Shown here: in pieces, positions 59,372 to 63,997 of the stretch | Layout of the letters: each line of letters starts with the position of its first letter | Numbering within the stretch: position 1 is the first letter of the stretch | Origin: Winogradskyella sp. MH6 | GTDB taxonomy: Bacteria > Bacteroidota > Bacteroidia > Flavobacteriales > Flavobacteriaceae | NCBI RefSeq assembly: GCF_022810765.1 | Contig: NZ_CP094494.1 | Location: 2,480,001 to 2,544,000 of the forward strand | Length of the DNA stretch: 64,000 nt | Direction of reading: 5' to 3' | The notes under the pieces: model-generated | Told to the model about the DNA's origin: nothing | Database searches by the model: none | Seen by the model: only the letters and a program-made list of their open reading frames with translations | Translations under genes and position numbers: made by a program

Positions 59372-60067
59372 CTATTTATGGATGTACTTTTTTATGATGT
59401 ATTTCGTAATTGATTTTAAAGTTTTTCCTGTTTCTGGATGACGACCATAATCGGTGAAAAATTCATATTCTTTATTTTTATTCTTACCATACCAAACACG
59501 CTCAGAACCATCACTGTTAAAAAATTGATAGCTAGAGTCTGGTTGAATTTTTCTGAAATTATCGATTCGTTCCTGTTTGTAAACCTTTAAGTCACTTAGT
59601 TTGTATTTATTTAAATCCAACTCTACTTCCTCATAGTGGTCTATTTTCCAAATCATAAATTTAGGTTCATTATTACTCATGAATAATAAAACTGTTATTA
59701 ATACAGCAGCTATTGTAATGAATACAAATAGATAAATTTTCTTCAGACCTGTTTTTTTATTTTCTTTTTCAACTGTAGGCTGATCTACTGTTTCTTTTGA
59801 TTTAATAAAGTCCTTATAGTCTTTAAAGCCTAAATATTTGCATAGCCCATTGATAGTTTCAATTCTAGAAATATTTATTTGCTCATCATCAAGTGCCTTA
59901 TTGTAATAATTTCTGAGTGTTCTAGAATTGGTTGAATTCTTGAGGTCTTCTGTTAAAAATGTGGCAATATGTTCTGATATAGAATTAATAGATGGATGAT
60001 TTGATCCATTTTTTATTAATATTTCTTCACCATTTTTAAAGGCTTCAAGTATTAATTCTTTATGCAT
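59372..60067 (-). CDS. Membrane protein of unknown function, controlled by phased repeats
   Basis: A 231-residue protein with an N-terminal helical domain (1-85, including SRIETINGLCKYLGFKDYKDF, quoted as NGLCKYLGFKDYKDF). One transmembrane helix follows (about 110-130), then a C-terminal domain rich in Tyr and Lys. The N-terminal domain resembles a cytosolic HTH-like module seen in uncharacterised flavobacterial proteins. I do not recognise a function. Its upstream region carries four TTTCC repeats at 60131-60168. It is divergent from the lipoprotein-kinase operon. Confidence 0.65.
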   Translation of the reverse strand: MHKELILEAFKNGEEILIKNGSNHPSINSISEHIATFLTEDLKNSTNSRTLRNYYNKALDDEQINISRIETINGLCKYLGFKDYKDFIKSKETVDQPTVEKENKKTGLKKIYLFVFITIAAVLITVLLFMSNNEPKFMIWKIDHYEEVELDLNKYKLSDLKVYKQERIDNFRKIQPDSSYQFFNSDGSERVWYGKNKNKEYEFFTDYGRHPETGKTLKSITKYIIKKYIHK

Positions 60068-60436: not shown

Positions 60437-60604
60437 ATGAAAAAAATATCTGTAATTCTGTTTACGGTTTTCCTCAATATGGCTTTCTTTTCATGTAATC
60501 CTGAGAGCATAACCGATGAAGTAATACCACAAGCTTGCTGTGGTGAAGATGGAGAAATACCACCACCGCCACCGCCACCACCTCCAACGGGTTCTGGTGA
60601 TTAA
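60437..60604 (+). CDS. Tiny proline-rich lipoprotein
   Basis: A 55-residue lipoprotein from the ATG at 60437; an in-frame upstream start at 60410 would only add nine residues. The signal peptide ends in the lipobox FFSC (about Cys20). The mature peptide has a CC pair and an acidic CGEDGE stretch, then nine consecutive Pro and a GSGD end. It is 26 bases upstream of the histidine kinase and probably co-transcribed, so it could be a signal, sensor partner or target. No function is known to me. Confidence 0.65.
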   Translation: MKKISVILFTVFLNMAFFSCNPESITDEVIPQACCGEDGEIPPPPPPPPPTGSGD

Positions 60605-60630: not shown

Positions 60631-62277
60631 ATGAAACAGTCTAACCAATCATTCCTCTTTTTTTTATTTTTCTGTGCAACTTTTTGCTTTGCGCAGAAAA
60701 GTCAGGATAGTTTATCCTATTACAGTACAATTGCACTGCATCCAAAAGAATCGATAGATTTAATAAATGCTTCAAAATATTTCAATAGACGATTAGAAAC
60801 TTCAACAAGTACTAAAGATTTTCATACCCAATTAAACAGTCTCTATTACATTTCGAGTATCAATTACAAAATTGGATCTTATGGTGAAGCTGAAAAGGCT
60901 GCTGTAGAAGCTATTAAAATTTTAGATGAAAATCCAGAGATTAATAACGAGGTAGCCTACAGAAGAAGTTTTTATAACTTATTAGGAGTTGTATATGCCG
61001 ATCAACATAATTATTCAAAATCGGTAGAGCTTTATGAGCGAGTGCTAGAAGTTGCGAGTAATACCAGAGACAGTGCTATAGTTTATAACAATATTGCTAA
61101 TGTTTATAAACGAAATGATTTAATTGAAGCATCTCACAAAGCCTCAATGGAGGCGTTTCAATTAACACCAAAAATACAAGATACTTTAACCGTTGCTTTA
61201 GTCTTAAATAATCTAGGATATATAAAAACCCAACTGCAAGACTATAATTTGGGTCGGTCATTAATGTTTAAAGCATTAAATCTTAGGAATCAAGCACAAG
61301 ACTCAACATCCCAGTACAGTAGTTATTCAAACCTTGCTAAATATTATATGGCAACAGATAGTGTAGATAAAGCAAAGTTTTATGCAAATAAGGCATTAGA
61401 CTTTGCTAATCGTCTTAATTCTGCTTCCTACAAACAAAATGCTTTAGGCTTATTGGTGGAACTAAGCCCAGATGATTATGCCAAAGCCTATAAAGTTTTA
61501 AATGATAGTCTAATATCGGAAGACAAAGCAAGGTCAAACAAATTTGCCTTAATGCGTTATGATTATTCCGAATTTGAAAGAAAAGCTTTAGAAAGTGAAT
61601 TAATGCACCAACGCCAACAATCTCGTACTATAATTGTTTCATTAGTGGCTATAGGTATAACCATAATTTCAGTTTTAGGATTCTTAATTACGAGAGCAAG
61701 ACACAGAAGAGAGAAATTGCAGCAACTTGTAGAAACTGAGTCTAGGATATCTAAACAGGTACATGATGAAGTGGCGAATAATGTCTTTCAGGTTATGACA
61801 AAATTTGAAAGTGAAACCTATGAGCATAGTGTTTTGGCAGATGAACTACATCAGTTATATCATAAAGCCAGAGATATTTCTAATCAGCATAGTTTGGTAG
61901 ATACTAAGAATTCGTTTTTAGATAATCTAGAAAGCTTATTTGAAAGTTATGAGTCTGACGATACAAATATTGTTGTAAAGGGACTAGCAGATGTAAAATG
62001 GAGTAACTATTCAGACATAAAAAAGAATACAATTTATAAAGTATTACAAGAGCTGTTGATTAATATGAAGAAGCATAGTAAAGCGTCTTTAGTATTGATA
62101 CTGTTCGAAAATGATGAGAAAAAATTAAGAATAAATTACTCAGATAATGGTGAAGGGGCTAACCTTATAAAGCATACAGGATTACATAATACGGAAAACC
62201 GTATTCAATCTATTGGAGGGACTATTACTTTTGATACACAACCAGAAAAAGGGTTTAAAGTAAAAATTGTGATATGA
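60631..62277 (+). CDS. TPR-sensor histidine kinase
   Basis: A 548-residue sensor kinase. A signal segment (1-22) is followed by periplasmic TPR repeats (about 60-300, for example KSVELYERVLEVASNTRDSA) and one transmembrane helix (about 331-353). The dimerisation domain has His378 in SKQVHDEVANN (HisKA_3/NarX-DesK class). The ATPase domain shows the N box ELLINMKKHS, DNGEG and GLHNTENRIQSIGG. It ends on the response regulator's ATG (ATGA overlap), so they form a pair. Confidence 0.92.
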   Translation: MKQSNQSFLFFLFFCATFCFAQKSQDSLSYYSTIALHPKESIDLINASKYFNRRLETSTSTKDFHTQLNSLYYISSINYKIGSYGEAEKAAVEAIKILDENPEINNEVAYRRSFYNLLGVVYADQHNYSKSVELYERVLEVASNTRDSAIVYNNIANVYKRNDLIEASHKASMEAFQLTPKIQDTLTVALVLNNLGYIKTQLQDYNLGRSLMFKALNLRNQAQDSTSQYSSYSNLAKYYMATDSVDKAKFYANKALDFANRLNSASYKQNALGLLVELSPDDYAKAYKVLNDSLISEDKARSNKFALMRYDYSEFERKALESELMHQRQQSRTIIVSLVAIGITIISVLGFLITRARHRREKLQQLVETESRISKQVHDEVANNVFQVMTKFESETYEHSVLADELHQLYHKARDISNQHSLVDTKNSFLDNLESLFESYESDDTNIVVKGLADVKWSNYSDIKKNTIYKVLQELLINMKKHSKASLVLILFENDEKKLRINYSDNGEGANLIKHTGLHNTENRIQSIGGTITFDTQPEKGFKVKIVI

Positions 62278-62945
62278 TGAAGTTTAAGAGGGTTCTTATT
62301 AATGACGACCACGATGCTATTGTGGAGAGTGTGGCTCAGGTTTTAAAGTTTAATGGGATAACTGTAATAGATAAAACACAATATTGTGATGAGGCCTACT
62401 TACAGCTAAAAAAAGCTGAATTAGAAGGAAATTCATATGATTTATTAATAACGGATTTGTCCTTTAAAGGAGATCATAGAAGCGTAAAACTTAGGTCTGG
62501 TGAAGATTTAATAGAAAAGGTGCGTGCTGAGAGTTCTGAGATTCCAATAATCGTGTATTCTATGAAAGATCAGCTTCAAAAAGTAAGAGGTTTAGTAAAG
62601 AAACAAGGTATTAATGGCTATGTGTGCAAAGATCGTAATGGTTCCAAAGAATTGAACGAAGCTATAAAAGCGGTTTTAACTGGGGATTTGTTTTTGTCAC
62701 CACAGGTGAGTAAGGCACTACAGCCAAAATCTAAAATGGAAATAGACGATTTTGACATTCAATTGATCAATCTGCTTTCAAAAGGATTATCGCAAGAAGA
62801 TATAAGTGATGACTTAAAGTCTAAAAGTATTTCACCAAACAGTATAAGTACAATTGAAAAACGGCTCAACAAATTAAAGATTCAATTTAGAGCCAATAAT
62901 ACCATACATTTAGTAGCTATTACAAAAGATTTGGGACTAATTTAG
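62274..62945 (+). CDS. LuxR/NarL-type response regulator
   Basis: A 223-residue regulator partnered with the upstream kinase. The receiver domain has the acidic pair Asp11-Asp12 and the acceptor Asp61 (LLITDLSF), plus a short insertion near residues 64-75. The C-terminal domain (about 155-223, IQLINLLSKGLSQEDISDDL, TIEKRLNKLKIQFRANN) is a LuxR-type helix-turn-helix. Start may be the ATG at 62274 or 62277. LuxR-type regulators bind short inverted repeats, and three identical-core dyads lie just downstream. Confidence 0.9.
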   Translation: MMKFKRVLINDDHDAIVESVAQVLKFNGITVIDKTQYCDEAYLQLKKAELEGNSYDLLITDLSFKGDHRSVKLRSGEDLIEKVRAESSEIPIIVYSMKDQLQKVRGLVKKQGINGYVCKDRNGSKELNEAIKAVLTGDLFLSPQVSKALQPKSKMEIDDFDIQLINLLSKGLSQEDISDDLKSKSISPNSISTIEKRLNKLKIQFRANNTIHLVAITKDLGLI

Positions 62946-62950
62946 TCATC

Positions 62951-62966
62951 TTACGGTTAACCGTAA
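62951..62966 (+). promoter_or_regulatory. Operator 1: perfect TTACGGTTAACCGTAA dyad
   Basis: A perfect 16-bp palindrome six bases after the response-regulator stop. Its TACGGTTAACCGTA core (62952-62965) ends exactly 22 bases before a TATCTTTG box (62988-62995). It is one of three such dyads in 1 kb. It is the likely binding site of the LuxR-type regulator encoded just upstream (inference). Confidence 0.7.
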
Positions 62967-62987
62967 ATCAGTGTATAACCTCTCTCA

Positions 62988-62995
62988 TATCTTTG
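62988..62995 (+). promoter_or_regulatory. TAnnTTTG box under operator 1
   Basis: TATCTTTG matches the Bacteroidota -7 element. The dyad takes the place where a -33 TTG would be, the expected layout for an activator-dependent promoter. It leads into the short transcript at about 63001-63074. Confidence 0.6.
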
Positions 62996-63000
62996 AAAGG

Positions 63001-63074
63001 ATTTTAATTAGTATTGTTGTTAATATTAATTCTTACGGGAATAAAAGGCGTGTAAATTTTACACGTCTTTTTTT
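63001..63074 (+). ncRNA. Candidate operator-controlled small RNA
   Basis: The region from the predicted start (about 63001) to a strong terminator at 63043-63074 is about 74 bases. It contains no convincing frame; an apparent 61-codon frame crosses the terminator. It would be a short RNA made under the control of operator 1. The alternative is that the terminator only ends the kinase-regulator operon. Confidence 0.4.
63043..63074 (+). terminator. Intrinsic terminator after the two-component operon
   Basis: GGCGTGTAA (63047-63055) pairs with TTACACGTC (63059-63067) with one G-T pair around a three-base loop, preceded by four A and followed by seven T. It can end both the kinase/regulator operon and the candidate small RNA. 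Confidence 0.8.
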
Positions 63075-63092
63075 GTGTTTTATATCTGTGTT

Positions 63093-63106
63093 TACGGTTA
63101 ACCGTA
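63093..63106 (+). promoter_or_regulatory. Operator 2: TACGGTTAACCGTA dyad
   Basis: A perfect 14-bp palindrome identical to the core of operator 1. It ends exactly 22 bases before TAAGTTTG (63129-63136), which lies 30 bases before the ATG of the secreted-protein gene at 63167. It is therefore placed to control that gene. Confidence 0.7.
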
Positions 63107-63128
63107 TTAAAAAAATAGTCATAGACTT

Positions 63129-63136
63129 TAAGTTTG
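63129..63136 (+). promoter_or_regulatory. TAnnTTTG box under operator 2
   Basis: TAAGTTTG matches the -7 consensus and would start transcription near 63143, giving a leader of about 24 bases before the ATG at 63167. Confidence 0.6.
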
Positions 63137-63166
63137 GAGTTATTAATTCCAACTAAATATTTAAAC

Positions 63167-63898
63167 ATGAAAAAAGTAATACTAATTACATTATTAAGCC
63201 TACTAATGATTCCTTCAAATATATTGGCTCAGGATAAAGGAGATGTGGCTTTAGGAATAGCAGGTGGATTACTTGCTATAGGATCAGGCATAGCGGCTGT
63301 AGAGCAAATGAAAGAAAGTGCAGAACTAACAGCTACGCAATGGGTATTGTCAAATTTGCCTGAAAAAACTAGTTTCTCACTTAAAACGTTAGATTTTGAT
63401 GGGAAGAAGCTAAAAGATATGTCTTCAGTTTCAGTTATTTCGTTTAAAATACAAGAATTTACTCCAGGTGACAAACCTGAACTTAACGGTAAAAAAGAGG
63501 TACTCTTAGCCTTTACGAGTCAAGGTTGGATAAATGAATATGGAATCAATTTTGATAAAATAAAATGGTTCCTGATCGATGCGGACGAATGGATGAACAT
63601 GATGGTAGCATACGTAAAAGTGGCTTCTGATGAAAAAGATGAAGCTTCATTGGAGAAGACGTTAGAAGAAGGACGTGTAGTAAATAAAGGTGTGAAAATA
63701 AAAAGTAAACTAACTATACCCTTTTATAAATTGGAAGGAGACATGTATGTAGTTACTGATTATTCTGAAGATATGAAGCTGTTATACAATGAAAGGTCTT
63801 TAGGGATCTTTCTTAAGGATACAAAAGACTTAGTACAAATGGGAAGAGGAGATTTAATCAAGATTCACGAATTTTTCTTTGATGAAGAGGATGATTAG
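63167..63898 (+). CDS. Secreted protein of unknown function, probable target of the two-component system
   Basis: A 243-residue protein from the ATG at 63167, where MKKVILITLLSLLMIPSNILA is a clean signal peptide (quoted in part as MKKVILITLLSLLMIPSNIL). An in-frame start at 63134 overlaps the promoter box and is rejected. A glycine-rich hydrophobic stretch (VALGIAGGLLAIGSGIAAVE) follows the cleavage site, then an acidic soluble domain ending DEEDD. I do not recognise the family. It lies directly under operator 2. Confidence 0.75.
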   Translation: MKKVILITLLSLLMIPSNILAQDKGDVALGIAGGLLAIGSGIAAVEQMKESAELTATQWVLSNLPEKTSFSLKTLDFDGKKLKDMSSVSVISFKIQEFTPGDKPELNGKKEVLLAFTSQGWINEYGINFDKIKWFLIDADEWMNMMVAYVKVASDEKDEASLEKTLEEGRVVNKGVKIKSKLTIPFYKLEGDMYVVTDYSEDMKLLYNERSLGIFLKDTKDLVQMGRGDLIKIHEFFFDEEDD

Positions 63899-63953
63899 CT
63901 ATTAGGCCTTATATCAATCTGAAAACGTTTTTATTTAAGGGCGTTTTTTCATT

Positions 63954-63997
63954 TACGGAAAACCGTAAAGATTATTTAAATAATTGATTTAGTTTCG
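63954..63997 (+). promoter_or_regulatory. Operator 3 with -7-like box at the window end
   Basis: TACGGAAAACCGTA (63954-63967) has the same TACGG/CCGTA half-sites with an AAAA centre. Exactly 22 bases on is TAGTTTCG (63990-63997), which matches TAnnTTTG at five of its six fixed positions. It would control a gene beyond the window. A weak hairpin (GAAAACG/CGTTTTTTC, 63921-63950) precedes it and may terminate the secreted-protein gene. Confidence 0.6.

Follow-up and report, generated by a model that had tools for sequence, protein, structure and literature searches.

Which protein reads the palindromes that stand, always at one distance from a promoter box, around a two-component system of Winogradskyella sp. 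MH6, and what would it control? The genome is a single contig of 3,499,064 bases, of which the window, meaning the whole 64-kb stretch that was analysed, is a part. An initial annotation had reported three TACGG-N4-CCGTA dyads there (at 62952, 63093 and 63954), each exactly 22 bp ahead of a TAnnTTTG-like box. Coordinates and gaps are exact in all three cases; the number of sites is not, for a fourth, within the kinase open reading frame (ORF), had been overlooked. The features are the following, with positions counted in the window:

59372-60067, reverse strand: divergent gene beside the kinase gene, one membrane helix by eye
60437..60604, forward strand: small lipoprotein, directly 5' of the kinase gene, with an SC lipobox and a CCG...IPPPPPP tail by eye
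60631..62277, forward strand: sensor histidine kinase with TPR repeats and HATPase; by eye also a signal peptide and a membrane helix
62190..62203, forward strand: operator 1, TACGGAAAACCGTA, within the kinase ORF, found by motif scan
62226..62233, forward strand: -7 type box TACTTTTG, perfect, 22 bp 3' of operator 1; predicted start about 62238
62274..62945, forward strand: response regulator of NarL/LuxR type, which is proposed to activate the four promoters
62952..62965, forward strand: operator 2, TACGGTTAACCGTA, immediately 3' of the regulator's stop codon
62988..62995, forward strand: -7 type box TATCTTTG, 22 bp 3' of operator 2; predicted start 63000
63000..63074, forward strand: short RNA of about 75 nt with a terminator hairpin at its end (folding z -5.27 over 62999-63078)
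63093..63106, forward strand: operator 3, TACGGTTAACCGTA, exact dyad upstream of the secreted-protein gene
63129..63136, forward strand: -7 type box TAAGTTTG, 22 bp 3' of operator 3; predicted start about 63141
63167..63898, forward strand: secreted protein of 243 aa, signal peptide by eye, function not assigned
63954..63967, forward strand: operator 4, TACGGAAAACCGTA, exact dyad near the window end
63990..63997, forward strand: -7 type box TAGTTTCG, five of six positions, 22 bp 3' of operator 4; predicted start about 64002, beyond the window

Could such sites be an accident? In the whole genome the exact dyad occurs four times, always at this locus, and a reversed control pattern twice. The annotation had proposed to look for dyads elsewhere that lack the 22-bp spacing; there being no exact dyad away from the locus, none does. 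Dyad and box sought together with at most one mismatch return just the same four sites, and with up to three mismatches the genome gives 16+13 matches versus 22+19 for the reversed control, so that nothing further stands out. A weak fifth candidate may be mentioned, made of TACGGTTTTCCATA, 22 bp and TACATTTA, with two mismatches in total (L001:13839, genome C1:2550838). The sequence that flanks the four sites differs from one to the other, which argues against a repeat.

Loci of relatives were gathered with the regulator protein alone (alignment A1, 30 sequences), and their DNA sites therefore make a separate test. We obtained 79 of them on titled contigs (best 80 of 384 matches), all titled Flavobacteriaceae or Flavobacteriales save L093, a 'Bacteroidetes bacterium' only; being related, they are not independent samples. 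Among these best 80 of 384, exact dyads number 121, in 67 of the 79 loci, while 12 loci have none. A box correct at five or more of its six positions lies exactly 22 bp to one side or the other of 116 of the 121, for a background of about 1.2% per position: this is the case of all 38 intragenic dyads, of all 27 that come right after the regulator gene, and of 51 of the 56 placed elsewhere. When perfect boxes are counted in these loci at spacings 0-60 in both directions, spacing 22 collects 87 cases and the runner-up two; when the half-site is permuted, TACGG yields the 121 palindromes and every other arrangement three at most. The argument that a fixed 22-bp spacing is hard to ascribe to chance, first made from three sites, is thus borne out in relatives, and the conservation that was then looked for beside orthologous kinase/regulator pairs is found for spacing and sites alike. 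The operator that follows the regulator gene (up to two mismatches, box at five of six or better at 22 bp) occurs in 61 of 80 loci, at 650-712 nt from the start of the regulator, and is absent from the other 19; control spacings of 16, 18, 20, 21, 23, 24 and 26 give 0 or 1 case each in the same 80 loci.

The site inside the kinase gene asks for a separate account, as it must satisfy a protein as well. Every one of the 79 readable kinases (78 of relatives and our own; L100, with no kinase ORF, was excluded) carries an equivalent of operator 1 with at most two mismatches: 0 in 38, 1 in 20 and 2 in 21, which makes 41 imperfect sites. The box is correct at six of six positions in 75 kinases and at five of six in 4. 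For the 42 imperfect sites listed, the distance to the kinase stop is 85 nt in 40, 88 in one and 91 in one, and in the adjoining kinase stretch, used as a control, no equivalent site is found (0 of 80). Codon choice under the site is frozen: Arg is CGT in 79 of 79 cases (background 0.17) and Asn AAC in 70 of 70 (0.26), the two most skewed of the columns that were scored over the kinase's last 110 codons; Glu is GAA in 77 of 77 (0.76), Ile ATT in 68 of 68 (0.53), Phe TTT in 79 of 79 (0.82) and Thr ACT in 45 of 50 (0.30). The exact palindrome is even kept where residues are altered (T-E/D-S-R or T-E-T-R), in L087 and in Maribacter-type loci.

Two records depart from this picture. L100 has an intragenic-type site, yet the search for a kinase ORF above 150 aa beside the regulator came back empty, perhaps because the gene is broken or because the search itself was at fault. 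In L097 (Winogradskyella psychrotolerans RS-3) the match to the regulator measures 659 nt, which is not divisible by three, the first long ORF past the intragenic site has 127 aa, and the regulator frame looks broken in the record.

That the dyads are look-alikes, born of chance, of a mobile repeat or of some coding or terminator constraint, is hardly credible in this light. Some substance is lent to the idea by three loci where the short RNA ends in a terminator whose stem forms an exact TACGG-N4-CCGTA palindrome, followed by a box at 22 bp in L084 and L099 and without it in L110. Yet the genome keeps all its exact sites at a single locus, the spacing of 22 is nearly exclusive, and codons that are rare in the gene are fixed precisely over palindrome and box.

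What does the spacing mean for transcription? The flavobacterial sigma-A box TAnnTTTG is located at -12 to -5 in the accessible part of the work describing it (PMC9723704). With the box so placed, the dyad extends from -48 to -35 with its centre at -41.5, and starts fall at 62238, 63000, 63141 and 64002. A centre near -41.5 would be the position of a class II activator, the start sites being predicted from the box. The consensus of 83 intergenic sites reads T-TACGGaWWnCCGTA-A-GG, 18 bp, T-TAngTTTG. A TTG triplet is found 15-19 nt 5' of the box in 1 of these 83 sites, and at 20-23 nt its place is taken by the dyad; at 14 nt, which is shorter than the usual -33 spacing, it is found in 16 of the 83, and among 39 intragenic sites it occurs at 19 nt in 2. 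The initial annotation had supposed an activator that takes the place of the -33 element, and this fits: at the locus dyad and box keep a fixed distance of 22 bp, and with no free -33 TTG in 82 of 83 intergenic sites the promoters look activator-dependent. One might prefer to see in the dyads repressor sites, the regulator at -41.5 obstructing the polymerase, all the more as activation is not proven by position alone. A repressor, however, has no need for a single fixed box spacing, and it would act on promoters that seem to depend on an activator; we consider this view very unlikely, and keep to activation.

The presumed activator has a readily recognised receiver domain (Response_reg PF00072, 2e-11), and D61, D12 and K119 are invariant in 30 sequences, with a conserved phospho-acceptor Asp among them. 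It had been labelled LuxR-type from the start. Pfam provides no GerE/LuxR match, and sequence evidence for the helix-turn-helix (HTH) is weak; the fold, by contrast, bears the label out. The AlphaFold model (pLDDT 87.5) has the receiver followed by four C-terminal helices (159-169, 174-183, 191-204 and 210-220), and its full-length PDB matches comprise RcsB, spr1814, VraR, LiaR and others, so that a C-terminal four-helix LuxR HTH is supported by the predicted structure. RcsB, VraR, LiaR and DesR resemble the model over their full length (TM-score about 0.5-0.65) at an identity that is low, 17-23% in full-length matches, and their DNA sites are unlike the TACGG dyad.

As for the kinase, Pfam recognises TPR_12 (1.9e-16) and HATPase_c (2.7e-4, 21.8 bits, under the 26.4 cut-off). 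Its best NCBIfam match is FimS of Porphyromonas gingivalis, at 64.6 bits for a cut-off of 600, far too low for membership, which is ruled out. FimS/FimR is likewise a Bacteroidota two-component pair, where the kinase is, as here, a periplasmic TPR sensor (PMC11053733, in part) and FimR activates mfa1 by direct binding to its promoter (PMC1974823, in part); it differs by its targets, which are fimbriae. The string 'palindrom' has no occurrence in the FimR paper (PMC1974823), and the accessible parts of both articles mention neither a fixed spacing nor an operator inside a gene nor a short RNA for this system.

The small lipoprotein next to the kinase belongs to a group of 50-60 aa proteins with tblastn matches in 38 of 79 loci (best 80 of 384), L072 and L053 included; in 34 of the 38 an ORF of 541-651 aa, which is the kinase by its position, starts at most 150 nt away. 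It might be a ligand, an accessory or a brake of the sensor. Homologues of the divergent gene were seen in 41 of 79 loci (again the best 80 of 384), and in L074, L083 and L121 they have a dyad of their own with a box at five of six.

Which genes lie under the operators? Of 1883 candidate homologues of the secreted protein, 1047 pass at E<=0.001. The protein, whose predicted structure is of low confidence (pLDDT 36.5), is present in 13 of 199 genomes, in 12 of them at full length. The regulator accompanies 10 of these 12, and operator plus box at 22 bp precede the gene in 8 of the 10; in G038 the dyad has one mismatch and the box is displaced, and in G078 there is no operator, the gene being directly behind that of the regulator. 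The two genomes that have the protein and no regulator (G091 and G174) have no operator with box (0 of 2). The gene may stand far from the regulator, on another contig in G030, about 15 kb off in G038 and about 18 kb in G114, which implies control in trans. The regulon first proposed, namely a short RNA, a secreted protein and a further gene, holds in that a site is found before each, the further gene lying past the window; it was also called local, and in relatives it extends beyond the locus. Past operator 4, outside the window, come genes for four proteins, one of 162 aa, two with DUF4407 and one of 614 aa. With each target taken to be the first ORF found within 450 nt, a rule that makes some assignments wrong, the largest cluster is the secreted protein family (13 sites); the regulator, GDSL lipases, a TerY-like VWA protein, DUF2130, DUF6567, TM2, PEGA and GIY-YIG proteins, a type I restriction subunit and small proteins also follow operators. 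Submitted to PADLOC, ten proteins gave strong matches for the TerY-like VWA protein (L053) and the type I restriction subunit (L066), and weak ones for two proteins past our own operator 4 (SNc+LTD, 4.8e-7; PDC-S17, 9.8e-4); by these matches the cargo is mixed, and a defence island is ruled out.

Besides proteins, the regulator would control the short RNA. We read out 39 sites, mostly in loci chosen for a recognisable RNA, and kept 36, L074, L090 and L104 being without such a fold. The 36 RNAs are 64-91 nt long; GCUAUUA falls exactly at the predicted +1 in 17, and the typical layout is a hairpin displaying AGGGA, then the terminator. Their mean folding z is -3.97, and a 5' hairpin with a GGG or AGG loop is found in 26 of the 36, versus a mean of 11.3 and a maximum of 18 in shuffled sequences. 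The family model R1, built from 18 of these RNAs, describes the terminator helix only because MAFFT alignments failed to register the 5' hairpin. In 80 loci it makes 35 matches at E<=1, and 30 of them begin 717-865 nt past the regulator start, 18 of these 30 being the training sequences; the RNA of our own locus, a divergent copy, is matched weakly (27.4 bits, E 0.35). Covariation was counted for the terminator helix alone, in an alignment fitted to that helix: 93 cells are changed on both sides against 33.3 after shuffling, with a score of 0.716 against 0.288 (0 of 500 shuffles reach either), while 9 of 10 pairs show a change on both sides, a figure equalled in 54 of 500 shuffles. ATG is present in 24 of the 36, and some coding potential is possible; in the reading preferred here the RNA would act as a regulator. 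No convincing match with a known Rfam RNA came out of the 23 loci scanned, in a release that may not include FopS. In the Maribacter-type loci L096, L101, L112, L115, L126 and L129 a different, larger hairpin RNA (GGCC...UUCGGGGGAA...GGCC) occupies the equivalent place.

This RNA family is not confined to the kinase/regulator locus. Among 29 chosen genomes R1 at E<=0.1 is found in at least 18 of the 23 that have an orthologue of the regulator and in 0 of the 6 that have none; scoring was limited to 150 first-look candidates in each genome, and misses are therefore expected. In the twelve retrieved regions with R1 matches elsewhere (L161-L172) the copies are single or stand in tandem, four at most, and follow a TACGTA-N4-TACGTA palindrome and variants of it. 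In the three regions for which genes were listed, the copies have the gene of an orphan LuxR-type regulator on one side and odhB on the other. In our own genome two such copies are visible by eye after an orphan regulator, near C1:1569089 (L173); R1 missed both.

We can now return to the protein that reads the sites. Among 199 genomes sampled in the family, 75 have a close orthologue of the regulator (E<=1e-34, a cut-off set after inspecting the list, with counting by hand) and 52 the exact dyad with its box. The two go together: 49 of the 75 genomes with the orthologue have the element, versus 3 of the 124 without it (G010, G047 and G112; Fisher p about 1e-23, uncorrected for kinship), 26 having the orthologue without the exact element; of the 199 genomes, 2 have the reversed pattern. 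In a sample of 198 genomes of the phylum the element is found in 16, namely 12 of the family (our own included), 2 of the order and 2 of the class, and in 0 of 149 genomes from other classes. Might a different transcription factor, such as another LuxR-type regulator, bind the dyads, the neighbouring regulator being merely one target? Candidates are not lacking, since a relative's orphan LuxR-type regulator finds 22 matches at E<=0.001 in our genome, and three genomes, just named, carry dyad and box without a close orthologue. Against this stand the co-occurrence itself, the fact that the sites in the kinase gene and immediately past the regulator gene are the most constant, and the palindrome of the orphan regulator's array, which is another one, TACGTA...TACGTA. 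We judge such a substitution unlikely.

The reading that we prefer, with a probability of roughly four in five, is that the NarL/LuxR-type regulator activates, through the dyads, its own gene, a short terminated RNA, the secreted protein and variable cargo genes. It draws on what is observed in DNA sequences, that is, the sites, their exact spacing and conservation, the frozen codons, the co-occurrence and the missing free -33 TTG, from which we infer binding by the regulator, dependence on phosphorylation, and activation over repression. The TPR sensor kinase next door would phosphorylate the regulator (62274-62945), whose phosphorylated dimer would bind TACGG-N4-CCGTA centred at about -41.5 and recruit RNA polymerase to TAnnTTTG promoters devoid of a -33 TTG, in a class II type of activation. 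Four units would respond. The first is the regulator itself, driven from operator and promoter in the kinase gene's final codons, with a transcript running straight into 62274-62945; this intragenic promoter would be a positive feedback, able to raise the regulator relative to the kinase. The second would be the RNA of about 75 nt 3' of the regulator gene, the third the secreted protein (63167-63898) and the fourth the genes that begin just past the window.

A broader proposal, about which we are evenly divided, joins two propositions: that operator and promoter of the regulator are dual-coded in codons of the kinase's catalytic domain across Flavobacteriaceae, possibly also in other families of the class, and that the same regulator drives a small-RNA family also driven by an orphan LuxR-type regulator in tandem arrays behind a different palindrome. 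Two signal inputs would then converge on one flavobacterial small-RNA family.

Parts of this have counterparts. UvrY/GacA with csrB/rsmZ unites, as here, a LuxR-type regulator, a palindrome and a small RNA; the csrB and rsmZ RNAs have G-rich hairpin loops. A CsrA sponge role is unlikely for the short RNA, CsrA being found in 0 of 31 genomes searched (control genomes matched in 3 of 14). According to the accessible part of PMC4682653, the LuxR-type UvrY binds a palindrome to turn on csrB, and this 18-nt palindrome is centred at about -183, versus -41.5 here. FopS/GibS of Bacteroides is a multicopy small RNA whose conserved 5' end is single-stranded and which has a terminator; unlike the palindrome-preceded copies described here, which have the 5' AGGGA hairpin in addition, it is reported to have canonical promoters (PMC11697453, in part). 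A LuxR-type regulator, a palindrome at -41.5, autoregulation and a small-RNA target are already known in other phyla; what is new is an operator dual-coded within a gene, a promoter grammar of such rigidity in Bacteroidota, and the sharing of one small-RNA family. We recognised no published account of the TACGG dyad motif in the open-licence literature that was searched.

Bacteroidota promoters depart from the usual -35/-10 design and, to our knowledge, the phylum has few known regulons in which a transcription factor acts through defined operators. Here the promoter grammar is rigid and readily testable; it predicts its regulator, and the start sites to the base. A two-component system is tied to a short RNA, and the operator set in kinase codons makes a clear bacterial case of one stretch used for protein and control. 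Finally, the site permits prediction of the regulon across many marine flavobacteria.
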